A DNA stretch of 33,342 bases. Source: a bacterium (GTDB taxonomy: Bacteria; Patescibacteriota; Microgenomatia; Curtissbacterales; GWA2-41-24). Under the pieces are notes generated by a model, which saw nothing but the letters and a program-made list of their open reading frames with translations, had not been told where the DNA came from and ran no database searches. Below are positions 19,972 to 33,342 of this stretch, piece by piece. How positions within the stretch are numbered: the first letter of the stretch is position 1; each line of letters opens with the position of its first letter. The stretch is from contig JAKAJD010000002.1 of NCBI GenBank assembly GCA_021813945.1, forward strand, positions 1 to 33,342, given 5' to 3'. Made by a program: the position numbers and the translations under genes.

Positions 19972-21609
19972 TTACTTTTGTTCTATGTTGTAAAGTGGGC
20001 TTCTTATTGAAATATATCCTGGAGCACGCAAATTAAATATTGTCTTAAAATCGCTACCAGAAAGTGAGACGGTTCCGCGGTTTGTTCCAAATGAAACATT
20101 TGCTGTGGATCCGTCATTTGTGTAGCTTACGGAAACAGAAGACACTGAAGTTACCGCTCCCCCAGCTTTTGAATTCGCAAGATTTCTCAGATCCCCCATT
20201 GAATAAGGGTTCCCTCCCCAACACGAAGTAGTAACTGGTGTGATCCTTCCACCATCAACTCCGTCCTTTCCTTGGACAAGCCATGCATTTAAAATATCCG
20301 CCATTTCTTCCTGGTTCAACCATGGGCTGCTCCTACCGCACTTATCGGAAGATATCGAATAACCCGAAGTGTACCAACCTTTGTAAAACCATGGTGAATT
20401 GGCAATTTTCTCCCATGAGTCAGCCGTCCAGCAATCTTTCGAGCGGCATTTCGTATCCCAAAACCCGCCATTTGTATTAATCCAACCGCCTGTTGTCGAC
20501 GAATATTGAGCAGAAACATCACCATCAATTACCTCCTTGTTTGTGTCATCGACTGCCGCCTTCCAAGCATCAGGAGGATTGTCCGACTTGCTTTTGGAAA
20601 AGACCTGGCATGCTTCTGTCGTACAAATTGGCTTCCCAGCCCGGTTGGCGTAAGTTCTTGCTGCAACTGCTTGTGCCTTAAGTGCATCTGAAGGCCAAGT
20701 CGAAGGCATTTCCGCAATCCCGTAAAGGTATTTTTGGAAATCCATCTCTCCGTAACCGGAAACGTTTATAGTCGAAGGCATTCCATCATCTTTTTTAACC
20801 CCATGCCCGTAATACCAGTTAATAATGTCTTTGTAGCTCTTTTCCGAAGCCATGGCTTTAGCTCCATATTGGCTCATTCCATTTCGATGTGAATAAGCGC
20901 CAAATGAAAACCCTGCAAATGCCGGTGAAAATCCGGGGTTATAAGAAGGTGAAGCATTCGGGTCGTCAGCCAGGGGCACATCTCCAACGGATGTTGTAAA
21001 AGTTCCGCTCTTTGCAGACAAAATCTCCTGCTGTCTGGCAGTAAGTGTAGCGATTTGGCCTTCCAACTGGCTCTGATAAGATTTTGCAGAAGCGATTTCT
21101 CCTTTTAAAAATTGTGATTGCTTATCTATTTGTGCTTTAGCCGAAGCCAGCCTCTTTTTATCATCAGCAAGTTTAGCAACCCGCTCGGAAATTGTGGAAA
21201 TAATTTCCCTGTCGCTTTTTGAAGAAATTTGCTGGAAAGCAATATATCTTAATGTGTCAGTTGCGTCATTTGTGGCAAAAAGTGTCAAAAGAGGAATATC
21301 AACAAAACTTTGCATGTAATAGTTTCTGACAGTTCCCGCCAGAACCTTTTTTTGCGCTTCTATATCGCGTTCGCTCTGATTCAAATCAGCTGAAATCGCG
21401 TTTAGCCTTACTCCAATTGCCGTGAGTTGTCCATCCAAGTCCTTAACCTGCGACTCAAGCGGTGTTGTCGCATTTTGCGAAAGCTCCAGTTTATGTTGCA
21501 GATCGTTAATTTGATTTTGCAAATCTGAAATCTCGTCTGCCCTTGCAAAACGCACCCAAAAAATAAGAGGCAAAATTAAAATTAAAAGAAAGATTAGGAT
21601 TCTTTTCAT
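19972..21609 (-). CDS. SpoIID/LytB-domain peptidoglycan enzyme with coiled-coil N-terminus
   Basis: I choose the ATG at 21609 (545 residues), because a consensus extended -10 box lies between it and a longer in-frame start at 21675. A signal peptide (MKRILIFLLILIL...ARA) is followed by a long coiled coil (about residues 25-225), with an insert like the CwlO/EnvC N-domain. The C-terminal SpoIID domain has GMSQYGAKAMA, YLYGIAEMPSTWPSDALKAQ and AVAARTYA; the Glu in A-E-M-P is the residue regarded as catalytic in SpoIID. SpoIID enzymes are lytic transglycosylases acting on denuded glycan. Several cysteines (GKPICTTEACQV, KCRSKDCW) suggest disulfides. It likely remodels the wall and is divergent from the pilin-like locus. 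Confidence 0.9.
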   Translation of the reverse strand: MKRILIFLLILILPLIFWVRFARADEISDLQNQINDLQHKLELSQNATTPLESQVKDLDGQLTAIGVRLNAISADLNQSERDIEAQKKVLAGTVRNYYMQSFVDIPLLTLFATNDATDTLRYIAFQQISSKSDREIISTISERVAKLADDKKRLASAKAQIDKQSQFLKGEIASAKSYQSQLEGQIATLTARQQEILSAKSGTFTTSVGDVPLADDPNASPSYNPGFSPAFAGFSFGAYSHRNGMSQYGAKAMASEKSYKDIINWYYGHGVKKDDGMPSTINVSGYGEMDFQKYLYGIAEMPSTWPSDALKAQAVAARTYANRAGKPICTTEACQVFSKSKSDNPPDAWKAAVDDTNKEVIDGDVSAQYSSTTGGWINTNGGFWDTKCRSKDCWTADSWEKIANSPWFYKGWYTSGYSISSDKCGRSSPWLNQEEMADILNAWLVQGKDGVDGGRITPVTTSCWGGNPYSMGDLRNLANSKAGGAVTSVSSVSVSYTNDGSTANVSFGTNRGTVSLSGSDFKTIFNLRAPGYISIRSPLYNIEQK

Positions 21610-21631
21610 TGGGGCAAAAATTATCCCAATC

Positions 21632-21640
21632 ATTATATCA
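21632..21640 (-). promoter_or_regulatory. Consensus extended -10 promoter for the SpoIID gene
   Basis: The minus strand reads TGATATAAT, a perfect extended -10. It ends 22 nt before the ATG at 21609, leaving a leader of about 15 nt. Confidence 0.6.
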
Positions 21641-21674
21641 AGTTTACAGTTAGGAACTATAACCACCCGCAGCA

Positions 21675-21718
21675 TCAGTCTTTAGTCCTTAGACCTTAGT
21701 CGTTTTAGTCATTAGATA
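21675..21718. repeat. Degenerate TTAGnC short repeats
   Basis: Four TTAG-type units (TTAGTCC, TTAGACC, TTAGTCG, TTAGTCA) are spaced 7-9 nt apart in the divergent intergenic region. Related units occur at 27901-27925. Origin and function unknown. Confidence 0.5.
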
Positions 21719-21789: not shown

Positions 21790-22914
21790 ATGAAAGCACT
21801 GCTAAAACTGGCAATTATTAATATTGTAGCTCCAGTTTTATTTTTTGCAGTTTTAGTTTCCCAAAACCCAAAACTATCTCTTGCAGCGACTTGTACATTC
21901 TCGTCTACTCCAAGATCATATCCAGCAAATCCAACAAGCCCCCCCCTTGAGATATGGATGGTATCCTATACTAACGGCCATAGCTATAATGTTGACATCA
22001 CCGACCCAACTGGAACTGATATGGTTGCGCAGCTGAACAGCAGCAATTCATACGACATTAAAATTCCACTCTCCGACTTACAAACCGCTAAATTTAACCT
22101 TAGTGCCGATACATTAACAATTGCTATCAATGACGCATCCGATCCATCCCTACCAATATGCAGTCCAATTACCTCAAATGCAAACACAATAATATTCGGT
22201 GGCTCCGACCCGGGGGGCACTTCTGTTCCAGGACCACCCACAGTTACACTAGACCCAAAAATAGTCACAACAGAAACAAAATCTGTCAAGCTAATCTTTT
22301 CCAATCTAACCACTGGAACTTATTATTCAATCCATACGTTGGTCAACGAAGATATAAACTACACTAAAGAACTTGCTAATTTCACAGCCAGTGGAGACTC
22401 ATATACAATAACTGTTTGCGCAACCGTAGCACATTCTCTAGATAATTATCTAACGACAGATTTAGCGAATTGTGATCCATTCAAAAACGATAGCTATTAT
22501 AGTTTTACGATAAATATATTAAACAGTAATAAAACTAAATGGCAAACAATAGGCGGGGGTACTATCTATGTTGGAAAAGGCTCTGGAAAACCTGGTGCCC
22601 CTGGACAAAATCCCTGTTCAGCTTCTAGTTGCGATACCGCTATTGGCAGTATTCCTACCAATCTAGGGGATTTTGCCTCAGCCATTCTACGTATTGCCTT
22701 AGGTATCTCAGGTGGCATAATTTTGATTTTGATGGTTATCGGTTCAATACGAGTAATGACTTCATCAGGCGATCCTCAGAGGACGGGAGCAGGCCGCGAT
22801 ATGATTATTGCCGCCGTTGCAGGCGCGCTTTTCATCGCTTTTTCGGTAATGATTCTTGAATTCTTAGGCGTAGCCGTAGTGCCTATACCAGGATTGAAGT
22901 ATTTCAGCGGCTAA
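21790..22914 (+). CDS. VirB2/T4SS_pilin-like protein with large ectodomain (A1)
   Basis: This 374-residue protein opens with a signal peptide cut near SLAAT (about residue 34). A beta-rich, low-charge ectodomain follows (about 35-270). The last 100 residues are a pilin-like module. It starts with the cysteine pair NPCSASSCDTAIGSIP, then NLGDFASAILRIALG, a first helix, the loop VMTSSGDPQRTGAGRDM and a second helix. This is the layout of the T4SS_pilin family, related to VirB2. By analogy the ectodomain and both ends lie outside and the loop inside. The C-terminal part is nearly identical to that of the next gene while the ectodomain differs. Assembly into a filament is inference. Confidence 0.75.
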   Translation: MKALLKLAIINIVAPVLFFAVLVSQNPKLSLAATCTFSSTPRSYPANPTSPPLEIWMVSYTNGHSYNVDITDPTGTDMVAQLNSSNSYDIKIPLSDLQTAKFNLSADTLTIAINDASDPSLPICSPITSNANTIIFGGSDPGGTSVPGPPTVTLDPKIVTTETKSVKLIFSNLTTGTYYSIHTLVNEDINYTKELANFTASGDSYTITVCATVAHSLDNYLTTDLANCDPFKNDSYYSFTINILNSNKTKWQTIGGGTIYVGKGSGKPGAPGQNPCSASSCDTAIGSIPTNLGDFASAILRIALGISGGIILILMVIGSIRVMTSSGDPQRTGAGRDMIIAAVAGALFIAFSVMILEFLGVAVVPIPGLKYFSG

Positions 22915-22947
22915 AACGCCAATAATAGATATCACATCTCTCATGAA

Positions 22948-22956
22948 TGCTAGACT
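22948..22956 (+). promoter_or_regulatory. Extended -10 promoter for the second pilin-like gene
   Basis: TGCTAGACT ends 13 nt before the chosen ATG at 22970. It overlaps the codons of a longer in-frame start (22943), which argues for the shorter form. Confidence 0.5.
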
Positions 22957-22969
22957 AAAACTAGATGAA

Positions 22970-24112
22970 ATGAAGATTATTATAAGAACCTTTCTGGTAT
23001 TGTTTTTTACACTATCAACTCTTGCCTTTAAATTTGTCCTACCAGATCTCGCCCAAGCCACCACCCTTTGCACTACTGTTCCCCTTTTTGGTAGCTCAAG
23101 TACAGTTATCACGCTGCAAGTCGACACAGATCAACCAATTGTGATTTGGAGCGGCGGGGCACAAGTTATAACTACAGACAACCCGCCCAAACTCATGACA
23201 ACGCGTTTGTTTAAGGCAAATGAATCCGCAACAACCCACTATCTTGAACTGGGAGCTTTCCCTGAAGGGTTATATATCGTCAACGTTGAAGTTAACACAT
23301 ACTACGGAAATGACTTAGCCCACATATGGCCTGTCAATTCTTCCGACATCCTTACCTGCTCGTATCCCCTTAAGATTTCCAACGCTGAAGGCCAATATTC
23401 TGTTACAATAGATCCCCCTAACCCGATAACCCAAAAAATAACTACCATTAACTCCTTAACCATCACCGGCCTTACTCCCGGCTATTCCTACAAATTTCCA
23501 CTCTCTGGAGCATTTGGGACAGACCACTGGTTGTCATATACGCTAAATAATGATGAAAGTAGCAGAACACAGATCTTTACAGCCGACGCCAATAAAAAAA
23601 TCTCTCTCCAGAATATGTGTAGTAATGGGGAAGGAAATAGAACAGGTGATAACGCATGTGGAGACGTCTTCCTTGATGGAACATATTCAATACAAATCAC
23701 AGATCCTAATACCGGCCATCTCTATGGCACAATAGGATTTACGGTTAACACATTTACAACCAAATTACTTACTGGTGGTGCTGGAAACAGCGGTACTTCC
23801 AGCAAAAATCCTTGTAACGAATCCGGTTGTGAAACGGCCGTAGGTACTATTCCTATCAATCTTGGTGATTTCGCTTCTGCGATTTTGCGTATTGCCCTTG
23901 GTCTTTCCGGCGGAATTGTTTTGATTTTGATGGTCATCGGCTCAGTCCGCGTAATGACTTCTTCTGGTGATCCACAAAAAATGGGTGCTGGCCGTGACAT
24001 GATCGTAGCTGCCGTAGCCGGGGCACTTTTTATAGCCTTTTCCGTTATGATCATGACCTTTTTAGGTGTTGCCATTGTTCCTCTGCCAGGTCTAGTTTAT
24101 TTCACCGGATAA
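22970..24112 (+). CDS. VirB2/T4SS_pilin-like protein with large ectodomain (A2)
   Basis: I choose ATG 22970 (380 residues): the signal peptide then begins MKIIIRTFLVLFF, and the promoter lies just upstream. Cleavage is likely near LAQAT. The ectodomain (about 35-280) is beta-rich and unrelated by eye to that of A1 except for scattered patterns. The C-terminal module again has NPCNESGCETAVGTIP, NLGDFASAILRIALG and a VMTSSGDPQKMGAGRDM loop between two helices. Protein identity with A1 over this 100-residue part is high while third codon positions differ, so the module is under purifying selection. It probably arose by duplication with ectodomain exchange or fast divergence. Confidence 0.75.
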   Translation: MKIIIRTFLVLFFTLSTLAFKFVLPDLAQATTLCTTVPLFGSSSTVITLQVDTDQPIVIWSGGAQVITTDNPPKLMTTRLFKANESATTHYLELGAFPEGLYIVNVEVNTYYGNDLAHIWPVNSSDILTCSYPLKISNAEGQYSVTIDPPNPITQKITTINSLTITGLTPGYSYKFPLSGAFGTDHWLSYTLNNDESSRTQIFTADANKKISLQNMCSNGEGNRTGDNACGDVFLDGTYSIQITDPNTGHLYGTIGFTVNTFTTKLLTGGAGNSGTSSKNPCNESGCETAVGTIPINLGDFASAILRIALGLSGGIVLILMVIGSVRVMTSSGDPQKMGAGRDMIVAAVAGALFIAFSVMIMTFLGVAIVPLPGLVYFTG

Positions 24113-24138
24113 AAAACCAAGACCTTTTTCGAAAAAAA

Positions 24139-24147
24139 TGCTACATT
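24139..24147 (+). promoter_or_regulatory. Extended -10 promoter for the third pilin-like gene
   Basis: TGCTACATT ends 12 nt before the ATG at 24160, with no SD. Confidence 0.55.
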
Positions 24148-24159
24148 TAAGTTAAGCGG

Positions 24160-26499
24160 ATGAAACTGTTCCTGAAGTTAGCTGGCGTTTTGTTTACCTT
24201 TTTTCTTCTCCTTCTGTCATTTACTGCACCTAAACCGGTCCAGGCAGCAACAGCTTGCCAACTAATTGTCTCCACTACAGAAGTAGTCGCACATGGATCT
24301 TTCAATGTCACAATCCAAAACGGAGTAGATGGAACTGAGTATGCCATTAACTACGACGCCGCATTTTTTCGGACAGTATTTACAATGACAGCGTCAGGGT
24401 CTTTCACAACTACTGTAAACTTGGATGAAATATTTGGAGCCGCATCCCCACAGGCTTCAAGCGGATCGTTCTTAGTAACTGCGGGCACAACAGCCCCGTT
24501 AGGCCTAGGTGGTGGACCTTGCGACCCGGCAGGCGGCATTCTAATTACTGTTATCGCCCCTCCGACACCTACAATTACCAGCTTTACAGCAGACAAAAAT
24601 CCTGTGGACTACAACACTTCCACAAATCTGAATTGGGTCTCTACCAATGCCGATACCTGCACAATAAACGGCACAACTGTTGCAACAAGCGGCACTCAAC
24701 CAACCGGGAACCTAACTACGCCTACAACTTTCACTCTCGTCTGCACTAACGTAAGTGGTTCTGCAACGGCCACAATAACAGTCAATGTTAATTCCCCTCC
24801 TCCCGTCGTCTGCTCTCCTGCAACTCAAACAGTCTTAGTCGGACAAGTAGCTAAATTGTCAGCGTCAGGCGGTGACGGGACTTTTGCATGGACGGCATCC
24901 GGCGGCTCGCCTGCGACTGGATCTGGAACCCCGTTTTCGACTACTTACTCATCAACTGGCACCAAAACTGTAACAGTCACAAGCGCTGGCTTAAATGCAA
25001 ATTGTTCAGTAACAGTCAACGCCCCACCCCCAACTCCAACACCAACTCCCCCACCACCCCCAACTCCAACACCAACTCCCCCACCAACACCCTGCAGTTA
25101 CGACTTCTCACCTACGACCGTAGATGAGGGTGGTTTAATTACTGTAACCATCCGCTCCGGCAATCCAACCCACCAATTCTTCGCATCAATAGATTCGCTA
25201 ACGCCACCAGACCCTGGAGCAGGAACTAGGATCGGCCTGGGAGACATTGTCCTAAAAGCCCCAAATGTGCCAGTAGATACTACCTACCTAGTCGGAGCAA
25301 GAGATGACGTTTCAAAAAACCTCTGTGCCCTCACCCCTGGTTACACAAACACTCTCACAGTTAAAGCAATTGCCACCTGGCATCTCGACCTGCCTAATGT
25401 CACTGCCGATCGCCTTCATGTCCTTTTCTCCTTCACTCCCGCTTCAAACGGCTACATAGGCCTGGTAGTTGCGCCCCGAAGTGGGGATGTCTGTAACTGG
25501 GTCGTCCTTCCTAGACCGTTTGACAGCGGCCCGATTGCCTCGGGCACAAACCAAGTAACCTGGAACTTTCCCCCTCCTGGAGACTACTGCGCGCAATTGG
25601 TTTTCGGGGCGGCTTCCGTCTCCAACACACAGCCCTTTTCTGTCCTTCCGCCCGCTGGCGACGCCTGGACCTTATCAGTTCGCAACTGCTATAAATACAA
25701 AGTCATTTTCGGAATATCCCCAAACGCCGGAAGCGGCAGTGTCATACACATCAATAAAGCAGACGGGACAACACTAACCGAGATCAACATTGATACAGGG
25801 GCCTCAAGTGTTGTATGGGATGCACCTCAAACACCTGCTAATTACAAAGCTGTCATTATCTATTTCACAAAACAAGTCTCCAACCCCATCACTTTCGACG
25901 TTCCCTGTGCTGGAGACGCGACTATCTGGACCATGTATGTAGCCAGTGTCTTAAACGGAAACGACGTTATATTCAATGTCCAATGTCCAACAAAAGACTG
26001 TCCAGGTATAAACGGGGAAGCGACAGTTGCCATCAAAGACCTTGATGGTCTAAGTCAGCCAGTTCCCAAAGGTGGTGGTATTGTACGCTTTAACGCTCTT
26101 CCCAATGGTAGTCACCAAGCGGTCGTTGTGGTATTTCTATCCGAAATGTCCGGTGTCGTTGACTTTACCCTTCCTCAAAATAACACATGTGGCTGGCTCG
26201 CTTTCCCTGGCGGTGCTGGCGTGGTTCAAGGACCCATTAAAAACTGTGCAATTGCTACCCCTGGGAAAATCATTTCCGCAATCCTGCCTTACATCTTCGG
26301 CATTGCAGGATTTTTGTCAGTTATCGTAATTGTCATTTCCGGAATTCAGTTTATAACCTCATCAGGTAATCCAGAAGCCGCCGCCGGTGCCAGAAACCGC
26401 CTAATCTTTGCCTTAATTGGCTTGGCAATCATCATTCTCGCCTTTGCATTCCTACAAATCATCGATAAACTATTCTTAGGAGGCACCGGTGTTTCTTAA
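24160..26499 (+). CDS. Giant VirB2/T4SS_pilin-like surface protein with modular ectodomain
   Basis: This 779-residue protein has a signal peptide (MKLFLKLAGVLF...VQAAT), then about 100 residues of beta-rich sequence. An Ig-like module follows (ITSFTADKNPVDYNTSTNLN). A PKD-like module (about 218-287, SASGGDGTFAWTASGGSPAT) precedes a Pro/Thr stalk of two 10-residue units. Beyond the stalk lie one more domain and three tandem copies of an about 90-residue module that begins W-x-[LM]. The C-terminal 85 residues form the two-helix pilin-like domain with FITSSGNPEAAAGARNRL between the helices. It looks like an adhesin whose membrane anchor is a pilin-type subunit. It overlaps the next gene by 11 nt. 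Confidence 0.75.
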   Translation: MKLFLKLAGVLFTFFLLLLSFTAPKPVQAATACQLIVSTTEVVAHGSFNVTIQNGVDGTEYAINYDAAFFRTVFTMTASGSFTTTVNLDEIFGAASPQASSGSFLVTAGTTAPLGLGGGPCDPAGGILITVIAPPTPTITSFTADKNPVDYNTSTNLNWVSTNADTCTINGTTVATSGTQPTGNLTTPTTFTLVCTNVSGSATATITVNVNSPPPVVCSPATQTVLVGQVAKLSASGGDGTFAWTASGGSPATGSGTPFSTTYSSTGTKTVTVTSAGLNANCSVTVNAPPPTPTPTPPPPPTPTPTPPPTPCSYDFSPTTVDEGGLITVTIRSGNPTHQFFASIDSLTPPDPGAGTRIGLGDIVLKAPNVPVDTTYLVGARDDVSKNLCALTPGYTNTLTVKAIATWHLDLPNVTADRLHVLFSFTPASNGYIGLVVAPRSGDVCNWVVLPRPFDSGPIASGTNQVTWNFPPPGDYCAQLVFGAASVSNTQPFSVLPPAGDAWTLSVRNCYKYKVIFGISPNAGSGSVIHINKADGTTLTEINIDTGASSVVWDAPQTPANYKAVIIYFTKQVSNPITFDVPCAGDATIWTMYVASVLNGNDVIFNVQCPTKDCPGINGEATVAIKDLDGLSQPVPKGGGIVRFNALPNGSHQAVVVVFLSEMSGVVDFTLPQNNTCGWLAFPGGAGVVQGPIKNCAIATPGKIISAILPYIFGIAGFLSVIVIVISGIQFITSSGNPEAAAGARNRLIFALIGLAIIILAFAFLQIIDKLFLGGTGVS
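25022..25092 (+). repeat. 30-bp tandem repeat encoding a Pro/Thr stalk
   Basis: A 30-bp C/A-rich unit is present twice (CAACTCCAACACCAACTCCC at 25031-25050 and again at 25061-25080) plus a partial third. It encodes (PPPTPTPTPP)2, a stiff linker in the giant pilin-like protein. Copy number could vary between strains. Confidence 0.85.
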
Positions 26500-27523
26500 A
26501 ACCTGTTTCTTGTTCCTTGTTTCTTGTTTCATATTCCTTTGGATCACCCCACGCCTCGCAAAACCCGTTTTTGCAGCACTTGGTGCCCAAGACTTGCACA
26601 TTGTTTCACAAACATGTACAGCAGATAACCGAGTAAACGTAGGATTTGCATGGATCGCACAAGCTCAGGGAGATTGGTTTAAAACAGACGCCCAATATCT
26701 GGATATTTCAACCATCGATAACACCTTCAGCGATCCAAGCAAATATCTAGGCGCCGTCAATCCTCCATACCCCCTCAGCAATTTGTACGATACGTCATCA
26801 GGCGGCAGTATAGGCCCCCTCGACCCTGGAAAACTCCACTATTGGCGAATTAACACACACAATCAATACCAAACAAATCCTGCAGGCTGGTACCCAACCC
26901 TTGGCCCAGCCTTTACCACCATAACCTGTAGCGGCAGCCCAACCCTATGGAAATTGGGGACACCCACAATGAGCGGTTGTACTGCCACATTTTCCATTAC
27001 GGCCCCGGACGGCACCACCGGCGCCGGACACGATAGCACCCTTGGTGTATCAGCCACACCGTACTACATTTCCCCAGTAATTCCTGACACCTCACCCACC
27101 GTCAGCTATACCGCAACACAGTCAGGGTCTTTAACGGCAGTGCTCCTTCTCTACACGGCTGAAATATCCAATAAGGTCACCTTTACCGCACCCCCCAATT
27201 GCGTTAGCTGGAACAATCCTGGTGCACCAGCCCCTCCTTTTAACATCATGTCCGTTTTCCAACCCGCCAAGCGTTTTGGGTCTTTCGGCCAGCTTGCTTC
27301 TGATTTCCTCTTGATTTTGGTCAGCCTGGCCGCAGGCTTGGCTCTATTTTTTATCGTTCTCTCTGGCATCAAGCTTGCAACATCCTCCGGAGACGAAAAA
27401 AAGCTTGCAAGCGCAAAAGGTACCCTAACCTATGCTATTATTGGAATTGCAGTAATAATTTTGGCTTTTGTAGTAGTTAGAATTTTGCAGTACTTTTTAC
27501 AATCCAGTGTACCGATAACGTAA
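26489..27523 (+). CDS. VirB2/T4SS_pilin-like protein with FnIII-like ectodomain
   Basis: This 344-residue protein starts with GTG inside the end of the previous gene. AGGAGG at 26478-26483 acts as ribosome binding site with a 5-nt spacer, so the two are translationally coupled. A signal peptide (MFLKTCFLFLVSCFIF...VFAAL) is followed by a fibronectin III-like module (about 33-148) and one copy of the W-x-[LM] module (about 154-239) found three times in the giant neighbour. The C-terminal pilin-like domain (about 258-344) has the loop LATSSGDEKKLASAKGTL between two helices. It ends in TAATG shared with the next gene. Confidence 0.75.
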   Translation: MFLKTCFLFLVSCFIFLWITPRLAKPVFAALGAQDLHIVSQTCTADNRVNVGFAWIAQAQGDWFKTDAQYLDISTIDNTFSDPSKYLGAVNPPYPLSNLYDTSSGGSIGPLDPGKLHYWRINTHNQYQTNPAGWYPTLGPAFTTITCSGSPTLWKLGTPTMSGCTATFSITAPDGTTGAGHDSTLGVSATPYYISPVIPDTSPTVSYTATQSGSLTAVLLLYTAEISNKVTFTAPPNCVSWNNPGAPAPPFNIMSVFQPAKRFGSFGQLASDFLLILVSLAAGLALFFIVLSGIKLATSSGDEKKLASAKGTLTYAIIGIAVIILAFVVVRILQYFLQSSVPIT

Positions 27524-27861
27524 TGACTCAGCTTGCCCAACTCGGAACCATAAACCCTCCAGCCAGCATTCCCACTGTAGGCGGCAACCCCTCCACTTTT
27601 GTCGCCGGCCTAATCCGCGGTTCAATTTCAGCTCTTTTGATAGGCGGCTTCATCATGACCTTTATTTGGATCATGCTTGCCGGTTTTCGTTTTATTACAT
27701 CCGGCAGCGACCCTAAATCCGTTTCTTCCGCTTGGGCTCAAATTTACTGGGGATTAATTGGAATGGTTGTAGTCCTGGGTGCCTTTGCTATAATCAAATT
27801 AGTTGAGACTTTTTTCGGCGTTACTGTTCTTTCCGGCGGCTTCCAGCTGCCCACAAGATAA
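27523..27861 (+). CDS. Small VirB2/T4SS_pilin-like protein without signal peptide
   Basis: This 112-residue protein starts in a TAATG overlap. Its N-terminus (MTQLAQLGTINPPASIP) is polar, with no signal peptide, unlike its neighbours. Two helices (about 35-60 and 75-98) flank the loop FITSGSDPKSVSSAW. The tail FAIIKLVETFFGVTVLSGG is nearly identical to that of the next gene (FAIIKLVETFFGVTIISGN). Its insertion mechanism must differ from the rest, unless its first helix acts as the signal. Small size and absence of an ectodomain make it a candidate core subunit. Confidence 0.75.
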   Translation: MTQLAQLGTINPPASIPTVGGNPSTFVAGLIRGSISALLIGGFIMTFIWIMLAGFRFITSGSDPKSVSSAWAQIYWGLIGMVVVLGAFAIIKLVETFFGVTVLSGGFQLPTR

Positions 27862-27881
27862 TCTATGACTAAAGAAAAAAA

Positions 27882-27919
27882 ACTAACAGCTAATGAAAGA
27901 TTTAGACATTAGTCGTTAG
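27882..27919 (+). repeat. Stem-loop with TTAG units in the pilin locus
   Basis: CTAACAGCTAATG (27882-27894) pairs with CATTAGTCGTTAG (27907-27919), 11 Watson-Crick pairs plus one G-U and one mismatch, around a 12-nt loop. There is no U-tract. It separates the upstream coupled genes from the small SD-led pilin gene and could act as a processing or stability element. Confidence 0.5.
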
Positions 27920-27940
27920 GCGTTAGACAACTTATTTGGA

Positions 27941-27948
27941 AGGAGGTG
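27941..27948 (+). promoter_or_regulatory. Strong Shine-Dalgarno for the small pilin gene
   Basis: AGGAGGTG lies 5 nt before ATG 27954, the best ribosome binding site in the window. It sets the start there instead of at an in-frame TTG at 27936, and suggests this is the most highly translated subunit. Confidence 0.8.
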
Positions 27949-27953
27949 AAAAT

Positions 27954-28343
27954 ATGTCAAAAGCTAAAAAATTGATTGGTTTCGCTGCATTGCAAGCCGC
28001 TGCAATGACTCTGCCAATGGCAGTCTTTGCTCAAAACATCGTACCAGGCGAGCTTCAAAACAACACCGACATTATCACGATAGTCAGAGCAATTATCAGG
28101 TTCATCCTCTTGATTGCATTCGTTTTGGCTTTCATCTTCCTTTTGATCGGTGGTCTAAGGTGGATAACAGCAGGAGGAGACGAAAAATCTGTTGCAGGAG
28201 CACGGGGAATGATAACTGCTGCCTTAATTGGTTTAGTGATCGTTTTGCTGGCATTTGCAATTATCAAACTTGTTGAAACATTCTTTGGTGTCACGATTAT
28301 ATCTGGAAACTTAACCATTCCAAACGTCGCAACATCAACATAA
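27954..28343 (+). CDS. Small VirB2/T4SS_pilin-like protein, candidate major pilin
   Basis: This 129-residue protein has a signal peptide (MSKAKKLIGFAALQAAAMTLPMAVFAQ is its region; cut near VFA-QN), then about 20 polar residues and two membrane helices flanking the loop WITAGGDEKSVAGARGMI. It ends FFGVTIISGNLTIPNV. Size, signal peptide and two-helix layout closely match VirB2 propilins. With its outstanding ribosome binding site it is the best candidate for a major subunit. It ends in TAATG shared with the lipoprotein-type pilin gene. Confidence 0.8.
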   Translation: MSKAKKLIGFAALQAAAMTLPMAVFAQNIVPGELQNNTDIITIVRAIIRFILLIAFVLAFIFLLIGGLRWITAGGDEKSVAGARGMITAALIGLVIVLLAFAIIKLVETFFGVTIISGNLTIPNVATST

Positions 28344-28708
28344 TGGTTCATAAAAAGTTGAGGCATTTTATTGCCTTTTCGGCCTTGGCATTTATTTTGT
28401 CGGGCTGTACAGTTCCGGGCGATCCCAACACGCCTGCCCAATTGGCAGATATTGTAAATGTTATTAAAAACATAATTGGCCTTTTGGCTCCGGCTGCTGG
28501 GATTGCCTTTTTCTTTATGCTTTTAGTTGGTGGTTTCCAATTTTTGATGTCTGGAGGAGACCCGAAAGCAACTGCCGGAGCCCGAAACACAATGACTTAT
28601 GCCCTAATTGGCATAGTTTTGGTAGTAGTTTCGTGGATTGTTATCCTAATTCTCCAAAATCTATTAGGGTTTGATTTCACAAACGTCAGGCTTCCAGCAA
28701 GCAGTTAA
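28343..28708 (+). CDS. Small VirB2/T4SS_pilin-like putative lipoprotein
   Basis: This 121-residue protein starts in a TAATG overlap. The signal region MVHKKLRHFIAFSALAFILSGC ends in a lipobox L-S-G-C (about 19-22), predicting lipid attachment at Cys22. After a short polar stretch come two helices flanking the loop LMSGGDPKATAGARNTM, then LGFDFTNVRLPASS. The lipobox is unusual for a VirB2-like subunit and suggests a base or anchor role, if it is processed by Lgt and LspA. Confidence 0.75.
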   Translation: MVHKKLRHFIAFSALAFILSGCTVPGDPNTPAQLADIVNVIKNIIGLLAPAAGIAFFFMLLVGGFQFLMSGGDPKATAGARNTMTYALIGIVLVVVSWIVILILQNLLGFDFTNVRLPASS

Positions 28709-28753
28709 CGCATTTTTCCCGTTCATAAGTTGTCACTTTTTACTTATCACTTG

Positions 28754-28759
28754 TACACT
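28754..28759 (+). promoter_or_regulatory. -10 promoter for the 1048-residue secreted protein
   Basis: TACACT, preceded by TTG, ends 6 nt before the ATG at 28766. It lies downstream of a longer in-frame start at 28730, supporting the later ATG and a leaderless mRNA. Confidence 0.45.
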
Positions 28760-28765
28760 ATAGAT

Positions 28766-31700
28766 ATGGCCCTACCTTTCAGCCTGGATAAAGGGTTCCT
28801 CACAATAATAAATCGTGCGAGCTCCTCTTTTGTGTTTCTTCTTTTCTTCTTTTTGTTTTTCTTTGCAACACCTAATTTCACGAGTCAAGCTCTAGCAGTT
28901 ATTCCTATAGAACCAGGCGGATCAGGTGCTACAAACCTGGCTGCTATAACAGGTTGCTATGGTACTGCCGGTTATGTGAAGTTCACTTGGAGCAGTTCCT
29001 CCACATTAAACGGTGACTATTGGCTCGATGTCCGAGAAGTTGGTGGCAGTTGGCCGGATGCCGCCCACCCCGGACAAAACGTCGGCACTAATTTGCAATA
29101 CACCTGGGGCGGGTTCTCCGGAATAAATAACATTGGTATGGCAAGCGGCGGCTACACAAGCGGTGGATTTAAGCTAGGCCAGGCATATGAATGGCGGATA
29201 TGGGATGGTACAGCCCAAGCTTATCCCACTCCTTCAAGCTTTACCACCCCCTCTTCGTGTACGGGGGGTGGTGGGAGCGCTCCGGCCCCGGCACCTTGCC
29301 AAAATGCTGTCGCCACGGATTATCTAACCGACCACTACATCACCGATTCAAACGGAAACCCGTTTGGAATCACAAGCTCCAGCGGTTCATCTTCATCATT
29401 CACAATCACAGGCTCCGGCACTCCGGGCTCAACAGTTACAGCAACAGCCAATAGCAATCCAACCTTCAGCTACACCCTAGATATGTCCAAGCTTCAGGCA
29501 ATTTTCGCCGATACCAATTCCAATTACAACGAAGGTCAATACCAAAATCCGGAACACCAGCAAGCGCCTCTGCTCAAGCAAACTACAGAAACCCGCGACA
29601 ACTTTTTTGGACCTAGCCAAAAAGCGGCACCAAACGTTATGACTAACCAGCTCCGTGTCCAATATGTGAATTACGTTTTTAATAAACCGACTCTATCTGA
29701 ATCCCAAAGTGCTATAACCGACGTCAATGGCCAGAACCCAATGACAATATATGATATGGTCAAAAAATGGGGTTATCCAGATCCTGGTTCATCATCTTTT
29801 CAATCAACTTGGGGACCTTACTGGGCTAAAATTCCTATTTCATATAACGAGTACTATCAAGGCAAACTGGAATTTAGAGCTGCCATCGGAACTGCCGCTA
29901 TAAACGCAGTCAAAGATGGTGCTGATTGCCCCAAACCTTTCGACTCAAGGCCTCCGATTACCTTTATCCTACCAAACACCTTTCGGGCAGCTGCAGTAAC
30001 AGGACAGGTAAATATGTTGATGGCCCCCAAAGTAGCCCAATCCTCAACAAATAACGTCCTTTATGCCTCAACCCAATTTAAAGAGAATGTTCTTGCACAA
30101 ATTATTAAAAAATGTGTATTTCTGGCATCCCAAAACTCTCTAACAAAAGCCCTTAAAAAGGTCGTAAGTCAAATCAACAGTGTAAAACTCAATCCTGTTA
30201 AAAATGCCTACGCGGCAAACGACAACACCGGTTGTGTCAAAGTTTTAGGTGACGGCCGCTCAGGTACTGCGCCTTATTGCGCACTTCCACCCGGCCAACT
30301 GCCTGCAAGCGCCTGCAGCCAACCTAACGCTAACGACCCAAACCAGCTTGATCCTCAAAACCCGAACGTTGTCTGTACAGTCACCTTTAGCTTTTCAAAA
30401 CAAATGGTCCTGCCGACCACTGGTAATGGCGATTGGGACAGTTGCACCATTTCCGGCGCAACGGAAACCTGTACCGCAACAGCCAGCATCTGGGCTGATT
30501 TTCGAATTCCCTGGATTGGCGAAATCTGGAATCATACCTTGGCTTCTGACAATTCCGAAAGCCTAGATATGCAATCACCGCAGCAAACCGGCCGGCCCGG
30601 CGTTTATGCATTTTTCACACCGAATCTGGTTTTAAAAAGCGCCAATCAAGGGCAGCAAGACCCAAAAATTGCCCTTTTGCAAAATATGCTCAATCAATGT
30701 TTGGCAGATCCACCTCTGCCATCAGACCCTTTAAACTTTAGAGGTTGTGCGCCGCTAGTTAACTGGGCAAACACTGCTGCGGCTGATGCATACCCTCAAC
30801 TTAAACAATGTGTTGTGGATAATCTTCTTCACGGAGCAGGACCCATTTCTAATTGCGTGGCCCTCTTGACACAATCAATTATCTCCAGCTCCATCCAAAA
30901 AATGCCAGGGCAAGTCGGCGGCACACTAGGGGTATCGACTTCCAACGTTCTGGGCGACACGACTGGTGAAGGCCAACAACCGGTAATTGGCTCAACGGAT
31001 TGCCTTAAAATGTTTGTTCGTGATATGGCTCTTAAGCCCCTCGTATTGCAAAAATATCTCAACATCGACACAAGCTGCATACCTAAAACAATTGCAAATC
31101 CGACTTCCGCATCCAGCTCAACGCCCACATCCACAGCCCCAACGCCAATTCCAGCTGCAACCCCAATCCCAGCGCCAACTGCAGGACCAATACCCACACC
31201 GGCAGCAACACCAGTATCGGCAACGCCTATACCAAGTCCGTCAGTATTTTGCAACACAGCCTCCAGCACAATTCCAACAAATACCAATGCAACATTCACT
31301 GCTAGCGGTGGAACCGGTACGTATTTCTGGAACGCATCTGGAGGCAATCCTTCAACTGGCTCAGGCCCAAGTTTCACGACCCAGTTCGCAAACCCAGGAA
31401 ACTACACAGTTAAAGTCACAAGCGGCAGTAGCCAAGGAGGCTGCAGTGTAACTGTCCAAGCCCCCAACACTTCACTTAATTTCAGCTGGAGCAGACCTTG
31501 GGGCTACGCCGCCTTTATAGACGTTAATTTAAAAACTTCAAATTGCCGCAGTGGCAATCTCTCTTGTTCGACGCCAACATTTATATTTTGGCCAGGATCA
31601 TCGTTAATTTTTGCAGTTCACGTCACAGATGCTGGCGGACCAACTATTAAATCCGGAGGGACAACAGCCAATACCAATGGTAGTGCATCAATGAATTGGG

Positions 31701-31912
31701 ACTGGACCTATGTTGCTCTTGTCTACCCTACATCTTTCGCAAGCTGCACGGCCGCAGGCTCCCAATGTAAAACTCAAACAATAAACGACAACGGCACCAA
31801 CCCGTCTGTTACCTTCACCGGACTCCAACCAGCAACAACCTATCAGGAAACAGTCTGCACCCCGAACTGCGGAACTGGTCTTGTCATACTTTCCAAACAA
31901 ACTTCAACTTAA
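28766..31912 (+). CDS. Large secreted multi-domain protein without anchor
   Basis: Choosing ATG 28766 gives 1048 residues. A signal peptide with a long hydrophobic core is cut near QALA. An FnIII-like module (about 55-150) resembles that of the 344-residue pilin-like neighbour. The middle (about 175-770) is polar with spaced cysteines and no recognised domain; it includes NPVKNAYAANDNTGC, which looks like a linker or cleavage region. A Pro/Thr/Ala stalk (about 785-828) leads to a PKD-like module (TASGGTGTYFWNASGGNPST) shared with the giant pilin-like protein. A C-terminal beta-rich domain ends without a membrane helix. It is probably exported and held by the pilin-like proteins or released. 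Unrecognised as a whole. Confidence 0.7.
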   Translation: MALPFSLDKGFLTIINRASSSFVFLLFFFLFFFATPNFTSQALAVIPIEPGGSGATNLAAITGCYGTAGYVKFTWSSSSTLNGDYWLDVREVGGSWPDAAHPGQNVGTNLQYTWGGFSGINNIGMASGGYTSGGFKLGQAYEWRIWDGTAQAYPTPSSFTTPSSCTGGGGSAPAPAPCQNAVATDYLTDHYITDSNGNPFGITSSSGSSSSFTITGSGTPGSTVTATANSNPTFSYTLDMSKLQAIFADTNSNYNEGQYQNPEHQQAPLLKQTTETRDNFFGPSQKAAPNVMTNQLRVQYVNYVFNKPTLSESQSAITDVNGQNPMTIYDMVKKWGYPDPGSSSFQSTWGPYWAKIPISYNEYYQGKLEFRAAIGTAAINAVKDGADCPKPFDSRPPITFILPNTFRAAAVTGQVNMLMAPKVAQSSTNNVLYASTQFKENVLAQIIKKCVFLASQNSLTKALKKVVSQINSVKLNPVKNAYAANDNTGCVKVLGDGRSGTAPYCALPPGQLPASACSQPNANDPNQLDPQNPNVVCTVTFSFSKQMVLPTTGNGDWDSCTISGATETCTATASIWADFRIPWIGEIWNHTLASDNSESLDMQSPQQTGRPGVYAFFTPNLVLKSANQGQQDPKIALLQNMLNQCLADPPLPSDPLNFRGCAPLVNWANTAAADAYPQLKQCVVDNLLHGAGPISNCVALLTQSIISSSIQKMPGQVGGTLGVSTSNVLGDTTGEGQQPVIGSTDCLKMFVRDMALKPLVLQKYLNIDTSCIPKTIANPTSASSSTPTSTAPTPIPAATPIPAPTAGPIPTPAATPVSATPIPSPSVFCNTASSTIPTNTNATFTASGGTGTYFWNASGGNPSTGSGPSFTTQFANPGNYTVKVTSGSSQGGCSVTVQAPNTSLNFSWSRPWGYAAFIDVNLKTSNCRSGNLSCSTPTFIFWPGSSLIFAVHVTDAGGPTIKSGGTTANTNGSASMNWDWTYVALVYPTSFASCTAAGSQCKTQTINDNGTNPSVTFTGLQPATTYQETVCTPNCGTGLVILSKQTST

Positions 31913-31961: not shown

Positions 31962-32092
31962 TAACAAAGGCCCAAAGCGGGGAAGTGCGGTGAGTCCTGA
32001 GTTTAGCGAAGGATCGAATCCGCCACTGTGCCGCAACGGTGAAAGTCCGAAGACCGCTTGGGTAATATTATCCCGAGCAGGAAACACGTTTA
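31962..32092 (+). promoter_or_regulatory. Cobalamin riboswitch (compact)
   Basis: The core matches the cobalamin aptamer in order: GGGGAAGTGCGGTGAGTCC, then AATCCGCCACTGTGCCGCAA, CGGTGAAAGTCCGAAGACC and CCGCTTGGG. CCCAAAGCGG (31971-31980) pairs with CCGCTTGGG (around 32053-32062, one bulge), closing the receptor core. The B12-box-like GCCACTG and the AGTCCGAAGACC element are the strongest evidence. Side arms are short, so it may be a compact subtype. A 67-codon reading frame through it is not real. Confidence 0.88.
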
Positions 32093-32103
32093 AAAAACGG
32101 ACT

Positions 32104-32132
32104 AACCTTCTTGGGATCAAGAAGGTTTTTTT
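32104..32132 (+). terminator. Riboswitch expression platform: intrinsic terminator
   Basis: AACCTTCTTG pairs perfectly with CAAGAAGGTT around GGAT, and the 3' arm runs into T7. The last T touches the ATG. The AGAAGG in the 3' arm is also the only possible Shine-Dalgarno sequence, so the hairpin can block both transcription and translation. Confidence 0.9.
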
Positions 32133-33342
32133 ATGCCTGAACGATTAATTACTGCAGTTGAAGCAACTCCAGATGTTCACTGGCAGGTTCCTGAAGATTT
32201 CCAGGGAATCATTGCCTACAATCCTCGCCATGATATTCAAGATTACTTAAATCTCAAAAGACTAAACGGTAAAATCGACCCAGTCCTTTTCGCCCAAGGA
32301 CAAATTAGAATTGACAATCGCACTCGCCGCCAGCTGGAAAAAGCACTCGGTGAACGTTTTGGAGTCGAAAAAAGCCTAGTTTCATACTACATCCAGGATG
32401 GTACCCTAAAAAGCCCTGACTACAATGAGCCTGTTCTCAAACGCTACAAAAAAGGCCAACTGTTCCTTTTAGAAAACGGCAGCCTTGAAACCGAAAGGGA
32501 AGCTGCAGAAGTTCGCGGGATTGCCGCTGTCGAAAGAATCTTCGCCAATAAGCCGCCAGAAAGCAACCAGTCCGTTGTCATTATTTCGCCAAGAGGAAGA
32601 GGGGAAGGCACACTCTATAACGACAACTACTTCGACGTTTACAAGAAAAAAGAAGACGGCGCAATCGAGATGACCAGATACCATTCAACCCATACCTACG
32701 TTGGTTTTTTCCAAGCAGCCAAAGAGGCAAACCCTCATTTTCCTCACCCCACAGATGAAACTGGCCTAAACGCAGCTTATTTTCTCGATAAACCGATTGT
32801 CACCGCCCTTCCGGAAGAAAAAATTTTGGAGGTTTTTGCCCTAGATCATGAGGCCCAATTACAAAGAGAGAATCAGCAAATAATCGATACATGCACACCT
32901 TTTATCACAGCGTACATCAACACTCTTTCCGAAAATCCGCTGGAGATTGAGCAAATCAAAATGAACATAAACACCATATTTAACGTCGCCGATCTCGAAA
33001 AAAAGCGGCAAGATCAGGCAAAAAGATTTGGATCAACTAACACCACCAAAAAGTTGCATCCAGTAGTTCCCAAGGATCCAAACCCGGCAGCAATCATGCA
33101 AACAATCGAAATATATGGCAGGCAACCGGCTCGATCTTCTGCACACGGATGTCCAGGTGGCCAAAGAGGTTTTTCCGTCAACCAGCCTACAGAGCTTAGA
33201 GCTTTTGCAAGATCCATTGGCGCAACATCTGTAATTGATTTCGCCCGCTTCGCACAACTCACAGAAGACGAAGACCATAGTGATTTCAACTGCCCAGACT
33301 GCGGGCATCTGATTAAATATGGCGCCGGCATCAAAGAATGCC
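32133..33342 (+). CDS. Riboswitch-controlled protein, unknown, zinc-binding motif (partial, runs off the end)
   Basis: An open frame of 403 codons starts at ATG 32133 and runs off the window. There is no signal peptide or membrane segment, so it is probably cytoplasmic. The N-terminal third is polar and helical with many charged residues (LNLKRLNGKIDPVLFAQG). A beta-rich middle part carries VVIISPRGRGEGTLYNDNY and IEMTRYHSTHTYVGFF. Near the end are HGCPGGQRGF and CPDCGHLIKYGAGIKEC, half of a zinc ribbon whose second pair of cysteines would follow. I do not recognise the family; it is not a ribonucleotide reductase, the usual B12-controlled enzyme of these bacteria, nor a B12 transporter. Absence of a stop makes its full length unknown. 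Confidence 0.75.
   Translation, partial: MPERLITAVEATPDVHWQVPEDFQGIIAYNPRHDIQDYLNLKRLNGKIDPVLFAQGQIRIDNRTRRQLEKALGERFGVEKSLVSYYIQDGTLKSPDYNEPVLKRYKKGQLFLLENGSLETEREAAEVRGIAAVERIFANKPPESNQSVVIISPRGRGEGTLYNDNYFDVYKKKEDGAIEMTRYHSTHTYVGFFQAAKEANPHFPHPTDETGLNAAYFLDKPIVTALPEEKILEVFALDHEAQLQRENQQIIDTCTPFITAYINTLSENPLEIEQIKMNINTIFNVADLEKKRQDQAKRFGSTNTTKKLHPVVPKDPNPAAIMQTIEIYGRQPARSSAHGCPGGQRGFSVNQPTELRAFARSIGATSVIDFARFAQLTEDEDHSDFNCPDCGHLIKYGAGIKEC

Follow-up and report, generated by a model that had tools for sequence, protein, structure and literature searches.

Why should a bacterium carry seven genes for VirB2-like pilins in a row, four of which encode large exported domains? This question is raised by a stretch of 33,342 nt from a member of the Curtissbacterales (Patescibacteriota, Microgenomatia; assembly GCA_021813945.1, contig JAKAJD010000002.1), referred to below as the window. 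It is the beginning of a 306-kb contig (C1) in a 1.13 Mb genome that is 94% complete. C1 coordinates are contig positions and continue past the end of the window at 33,342; gene content outside the region was assessed through family searches. On balance, the seven genes are probably the VirB2-like pilin set of a chromosomal, oriC-linked type IV secretion system (T4SS), whose products would assemble into a heteromeric surface structure displaying variable contact domains.

Seven proteins with a common C-terminal module

The array consists of seven consecutive open reading frames (ORFs) on the plus strand, g1 to g7 (21790-28708; Table 1), each of which ends in a T4SS_pilin (PF18895) hairpin. PF18895 matches the C-terminal part of all seven proteins in hmmscan (E 4e-9 to 2.3e-4), and four of them pass the gathering score. 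A search of the whole genome yielded exactly seven matches, the array genes themselves, six of them over the cut-off. Below it lies g5 (22-23 bits), which is placed with the array by its position and by the tree described below. The modules also match one another (g1/g2 77%, g5/g6 48%, g4/g7 44%). The proteins g5 to g7 are pilin-sized (112-135 aa); g1 to g4 carry a signal peptide and then an ectodomain of ~235-670 aa once the signal peptide is subtracted. This bears out the first-pass annotation, made from the sequence alone, which had described seven consecutive ORFs with a shared pilin-type module, three of them small and four with exported ectodomains of similar sizes. The genes are closely packed: neighbouring ORFs share 11 nt in the case of g3/g4 and 1 base each in g4/g5 and g6/g7. 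g6 probably starts at ATG 27954, after AGGAGGTG, rather than at TTG 27936.

The array lies beside an oriC-linked T4SS

VirB4, PrgI, a TrsD-like gene, an M23 peptidase gene and dnaA are all found within 30 kb downstream of the array. The array belongs to the oriC-linked Patescibacteria T4SS for which 441 VirB2-like arrays of 2-11 genes have been reported from 383 assemblies (Quinonero-Coronel et al., 2025; PMC12102498). Those arrays are, like this one, tandem PF18895 genes with low identity within an array, located in an oriC-linked T4SS derived from MPF-FATA and abundant in Microgenomatia. In contrast to the locus studied here, ectodomain-bearing pilins, slot orthology or a fixed order do not appear in the main-text passages on them. 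In Southlakia epibionticum ML1, a Saccharibacterium, six sequence-divergent VirB2-like pilins are described in the passages on its T4SS cluster and are essential for epibiotic growth (Wang et al., 2023; PMC10633639; review PMC12857230). Both loci thus have several divergent VirB2-like pilins inside a T4SS cluster, but the passages on the ML1 pilins make no mention of large ectodomains. Since multi-pilin arrays have been published in both studies, the existence of such arrays was already known, and the initial impression that several pilins in a row are unusual did not hold.

The first-pass annotation had named VirB4, VirB6 and VirD4 as genes to look for in the flanks. VirB4 is present downstream, together with PrgI and the TrsD-like gene. 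For VirB6, a polytopic protein kept across the family was found in the right place, without an HMM match. VirD4 was not found: neither a PF02534 VirD4-type coupling protein nor a PF03432 relaxase was detected in the 94% complete genome, other families of relaxases and coupling proteins not having been searched.

The Mollicutes integrative and conjugative element (ICE) that encodes Mbov_0395 together with the ATPase Mbov_0397 is similar in two respects. The NCBIfam model of its pilin-like protein (NF045849, Mbov_0395) matches four of the seven pilins, g3, g4, g5 and g7, at E<=7.4e-4 (best 1.2e-7), and the Mbov_0397 model matches the T4SS ATPase, in all cases below the cut-off. Judged from the NCBIfam names, however, this is a conjugative element whose pilin-like protein is small, whereas the present array is chromosomal and no PF03432 relaxase accompanies it. 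A prophage or an ICE was considered for the locus itself and rejected. Its location near dnaA, the conserved flanks (SpoIID-type gene, g8, g9 and VirB6-position gene) and the synteny kept within the family point to a resident chromosomal locus.

Six orthologous slots in a fixed order

Eleven further genomes from this family have the same array layout; together with this genome they form the same-family set. Slots were labelled F to A by position, counted from the 3' end of the array. In this genus slot A is duplicated (g1, g2), which results in seven genes for six slots. On a tree of 74 hairpin modules from the 12 genomes, the position labels require 5 changes for 6 groups, which is the minimum, and shuffled labels 48. 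Support is weak for some slot branches (11% for slot C, 74% for slot E), which is expected because the alignment has only about 80 columns. Modules of the same slot are 62.5% identical across genera, modules of different slots within one genome 29.1%. When the slot E alignment was compared with GTDB genomes, the ten best matches were Candidatus Curtissbacteria or Patescibacteria group records; weaker ones came from Gottesmanbacteria, Woesebacteria, Daviesbacteria and other Patescibacteria.

Slot HMMs were then applied to 26 arrays from other families of the class. Slot A is the first gene in 17 of the 18 arrays that have it, slot F the last in all 21 that carry it, and the E-F pair is terminal in 21. 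None of 10,000 within-array shuffles reached the observed slot order. The middle slots are resolved less clearly in these families. Outside the class, five positions form groups in family f47, some of them weakly supported and one locally duplicated (slot 3 in L170 and L173); family f40 displays a looser slot pattern. By sequence comparison, the array consists of subunits that have long been distinct: each of the six slots, A to F, is orthologous across genomes, and their order is constant. This agrees with the initial proposal of unlike subunits working together, as does the linkage to VirB4, PrgI and TrsD-like genes. Although the array type itself was known, we did not find slot orthology and fixed order described.

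For such arrays, antigenic variation is offered as a possible explanation in passages of PMC12102498. By analogy with Bartonella Trw, tandem amplification would have produced a pool of pilin variants that can replace one another and serve to vary antigens or host range. Local duplications do occur, in slot A here and in slot 3 of f47, and the slot A ectodomains are hypervariable. However, a tandem amplification of equivalent copies does not fit, because the slots are orthologous, keep their order and do not mix. Furthermore, variation is located in the ectodomains of certain slots and not in the pilin module. Such a pool is therefore quite unlikely.

Ectodomains diverge faster than the membrane module

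In the class arrays, at least 150 residues precede the module in 13 of 21 slot A proteins, compared with 1 of 150 proteins from the other slots. The slot A juxtamembrane motif N-P-C...C-x-T is invariant. Compared with the sister species (L042), slot A of this genome is 33-41% identical in the ectodomain and 80% in the module. The corresponding values are 72% and 91% for slot B and 45% and 85% for slot C; the ectodomain-free slots D to F are 81-94% identical throughout. Similarly, g1 and g2 share 77% of their last 111 residues and 28% of the preceding part. This means, ectodomains change faster than the membrane module, which fits a role in contact. Only in this genus (two genomes) are large ectodomains also present in slot B (701 and 756 residues before the module) and slot C (265 and 269). 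An earlier account of fast-diverging ectodomains located mainly in slot A was not found.

Other members of the phylum, too, have large proteins that contain the pilin module, either C-terminally (L119, L121) or N-terminally (L118, L120, L122). In four loci from other Microgenomatia (L053, L055, L057, L059), a PF18895 gene of ~110-130 aa is followed by a ~430-aa gene with an N-terminal module, beside another VirB4 homologue.

Could the proteins be independent adhesins, for which the pilin-type hairpin is merely a two-helix membrane anchor outside any polymer or complex? Four of the seven are mostly ectodomain, a domain of ~700 aa would be hard to pack on each subunit of a helical filament, and no such pilus has been seen (PMC12206443). 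On the other hand, the hairpin is the most conserved part, beyond the needs of an anchor, and slots D to F have no ectodomain to anchor. In addition, order and T4SS linkage are conserved, and the ML1 array is described in passages of PMC10633639 as essential within its T4SS cluster. Independent adhesins are thus unlikely.

Modules shared with the VirB6-position protein and g8

The g3 ectodomain is homologous to the VirB6-position protein (E 3e-7) and also shares modules with g4. The g8 homologue of the sister species is related to g3 (E 7e-11) and to the sister's VirB6-position protein (E 2e-6). Block-shuffled controls gave 0-1 hits per trial. The first domain of the sister's slot C protein and the N-terminal domain of g8 from this genome share 56% identity (E 4e-35), but the sister's own g8 contains no match to that slot C domain. 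On these grounds, a pilin-like subunit and a secreted neighbour seem to have exchanged a domain. In the VirB6-position protein, channel helices start after ~residue 470 in this genus, compared with ~150-190 in relatives. These shared modules, coming from a single lineage, suggest but do not establish that the proteins are structurally coupled. For module sharing among B, C, the VirB6-position protein and the secreted neighbour, no earlier description came to light. The g8 homologue of the sister species (L042:5377-10182, 1601 aa) contains a metzincin-type HEIGHQLGADH motif with weak reprolysin matches below cut-off; this motif is absent from g8 in the window.

Distinct subunits in fixed order and modules in common with the VirB6-position protein would also suit a hetero-oligomeric membrane ring or pore around the latter, a short translocation conduit instead of a pilus, with the ectodomains as a collar. 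The same applies to the fact that no T4SS pilus has been assigned in N. lyticus (PMC12206443). A ring overlaps with the heteromeric surface structure favoured here, which may be a pilus or a channel. VirB2-type hairpins elsewhere form filaments. We consider a ring distinctly improbable.

Topology, predicted structure and a model of the assembly

Hydropathy indicates two transmembrane (TM) helices joined by a short loop, which is the architecture of VirB2-like pilins. The signal peptide, the outer ectodomain and the weakly positive loop suggest that signal peptide and ectodomain are outside and that the loop faces the cytoplasm, an arrangement known from VirB2-type pilins. This topology, derived from hydropathy and charge and not from a dedicated predictor, corresponds to that of the first-pass annotation, for which the loop should not be extracellular. 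Slot D has no signal peptide here; a signal-peptide-like N-terminus is present in three relatives (L043, L050, L051). Slot F has a lipobox-like LSGC signal confined to this genus, its relatives having A-x-A type signals. This difference suggests a switch to a putatively lipidated pilin-like protein.

AlphaFold2 predicts for slot E (g6) an antiparallel hairpin of helices 40-73 and 78-112 with a pLDDT of ~90. For g4, strands at 160-234 and helices at 266-298 and 303-338 are predicted with low overall confidence (mean pLDDT 50), too low for a fold search. Among fold matches to slot E, the conjugation pilus of Aeropyrum pernix (8dfu) ranks highest in probability but is not significant (probability 0.72, E 2.2, TM by target 0.65). 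Conjugative pilins of the VirB2/TraA/CedA1 type share with the array proteins the signal peptide and the two-helix hairpin with a short loop, and 8dfu is the nearest in probability to slot E. They are usually of one small subunit type, and neither a PF04956 match nor a significant structural match links the array to them.

Several points weigh against a VirB2-like pilin set. Of the two families with which the first-pass annotation had wished to compare the modules, PF18895 matches all seven, but PF04956 (TrbC/VirB2) matches none at E<=1; the label VirB2-like therefore rests on PF18895, topology and context. The search of the PDB with the slot E model gave no significant fold match, and slot E and F profiles hit only chance or designed-protein sequences there and no solved pilin. 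A two-helix hairpin is a simple architecture. The VirB6 assignment is based on position and topology, HMM searches being without match, and ectodomain growth in B, C and VirB6 represents one lineage (two genomes), a correlation without statistical weight. Finally, filaments in cryo-electron tomography of Saccharibacteria were attributed to type IV pili and none to a T4SS in N. lyticus (PMC12206443).

In the favoured model, the subunits of slots A to F would be six different parts that cannot substitute for one another. Each would enter the membrane as a hairpin of two helices, with the loop in the cytoplasm and both termini outside. Together with the VirB4-energised channel, they would form a heteromeric structure at the surface, either a short pilus or an extension of the channel. 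Slots D to F would be core subunits. On the exterior, variable beta-domain ectodomains displayed by slot A, and here by B and C as well, would make contact with another cell. A more far-reaching proposal is possible but doubtful: Patescibacteria may have a T4SS organelle of five or six obligate, positioned VirB2-like subunits, the leading one being a fast-evolving contact protein. In some lineages, beta-modules would pass between the organelle, the channel protein and secreted neighbours, yielding a composite host-binding crown.

Fixed-slot orthology implies that the several pilins are different parts and not spare copies. Distinct parts predict that each slot is essential and that the subunits have a defined stoichiometry. 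For an uncultured lineage, the leading slot with its ectodomain offers a concrete candidate for the partner-specific contact protein, and the membrane module could be used as a probe for such proteins in other genomes.

Flanking genes and the cobalamin riboswitch

Table 1. Features of the array and its surroundings
Feature	Position	Strand	Length (aa)	Residues before module	Characteristics and basis
Coiled-coil and SpoIID/LytB-domain protein, divergent	19972..21675	-			PF08486 E 1.5e-16
g1, slot A copy 1	21790..22914	+	374	291	Signal peptide, variable ectodomain, NPC-x-C juxtamembrane motif, T4SS_pilin hairpin aa 292-361; PF18895 E 1.1e-5 (hmmscan), 2.2e-7 (genome search); slot A clade
g2, slot A copy 2	22943..24112	+	389	306	Slot A clade; juxtamembrane region and module resemble g1
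g3, slot B	24160..26499	+	779	701	PKD-like and other predicted beta modules, then hairpin aa 702-772; PF18895 E 2.4e-7
g4, slot C	26489..27523	+	344	265	Ectodomain, then hairpin aa 266-338; PF18895 E 4e-9
g5, slot D	27523..27861	+	112	26	Pilin-sized; slot D clade; PF18895 E 2.3e-4 and NF045849 E 7e-7, both below cut-off
g6, slot E	27954..28343	+	~129	44	Signal peptide and hairpin; most conserved slot; PF18895 E 4.6e-7
g7, slot F	28343..28708	+	121	35	PF18895 E 1.4e-8; slot F clade
g8	28730..31912	+	1060		Secreted, PKD domain (PF00801 E 2.6e-6), no pilin module
AdoCbl-II cobalamin riboswitch aptamer	31962..32064	+			Ahead of g9; RF01689 40.5 bits, gathering score 36.5
Terminator-like hairpin	32104-32127				Abuts g9 ATG
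g9	32133..33342, continuing to C1:33380	+	415		No signal peptide or TM; C-terminal zinc-ribbon-like cysteines
VirB6-position protein	C1:33484-36015		843		Polytopic
Large protein	C1:36018-39944 (= L008:8019-11945)	-	1308		No Pfam match
PrgI	C1:41595				PF12666 over cut-off
TrsD-like gene	same contig				TrsD model E 2.9e-9, below cut-off
VirB4	C1:44046-45920				Equivalog NF045971 384 bits, cut-off 325
M23 peptidase gene	same contig, downstream of array				
dnaN and dnaA	same contig, downstream; dnaA ~52 kb				Named by eye from sequence

In relatives, a g8 homologue likewise comes after slot F. A divergent protein similar in size and N-terminus to the SpoIID/LytB-domain protein is found beside the array in most relatives whose flank was covered by the gene maps. 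g9 is located between g8 and the VirB6-position gene. The large 1308-aa protein is encoded between the latter and the PrgI/VirB4 genes, a position at which several family relatives have large ORFs, too.

Directly upstream of g9, a cobalamin-type riboswitch scores over threshold in the window, in L042:3849-3930 and in L052:8282-8365, and just over threshold in L049:415-595. Candidates below threshold were found in L050:7516-7677 and L051:3492-3680. A riboswitch ahead of g9 within the T4SS locus is thus present in up to six genomes of the family; none was found in L044, L046, L047 and L048. In L042, riboswitch and g9 are inverted together as a unit, and control of g9 alone is therefore the safer reading. 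The conserved ribbon at the C-terminus of g9 and its variable N-terminus had raised the idea of an effector; this was dropped, as the genome contains only one other, weak ribbon match. A search of the literature library found no paper joining Patescibacteria, cobalamin and riboswitch. Elsewhere in the class, g9-like genes also come after such riboswitches, and there is a hint that g9 is part of B12 biology. In L130 and L157, the riboswitch is followed by an ORF that resembles, by eye, a PduO-type cob(I)alamin adenosyltransferase and then by the g9-like gene.

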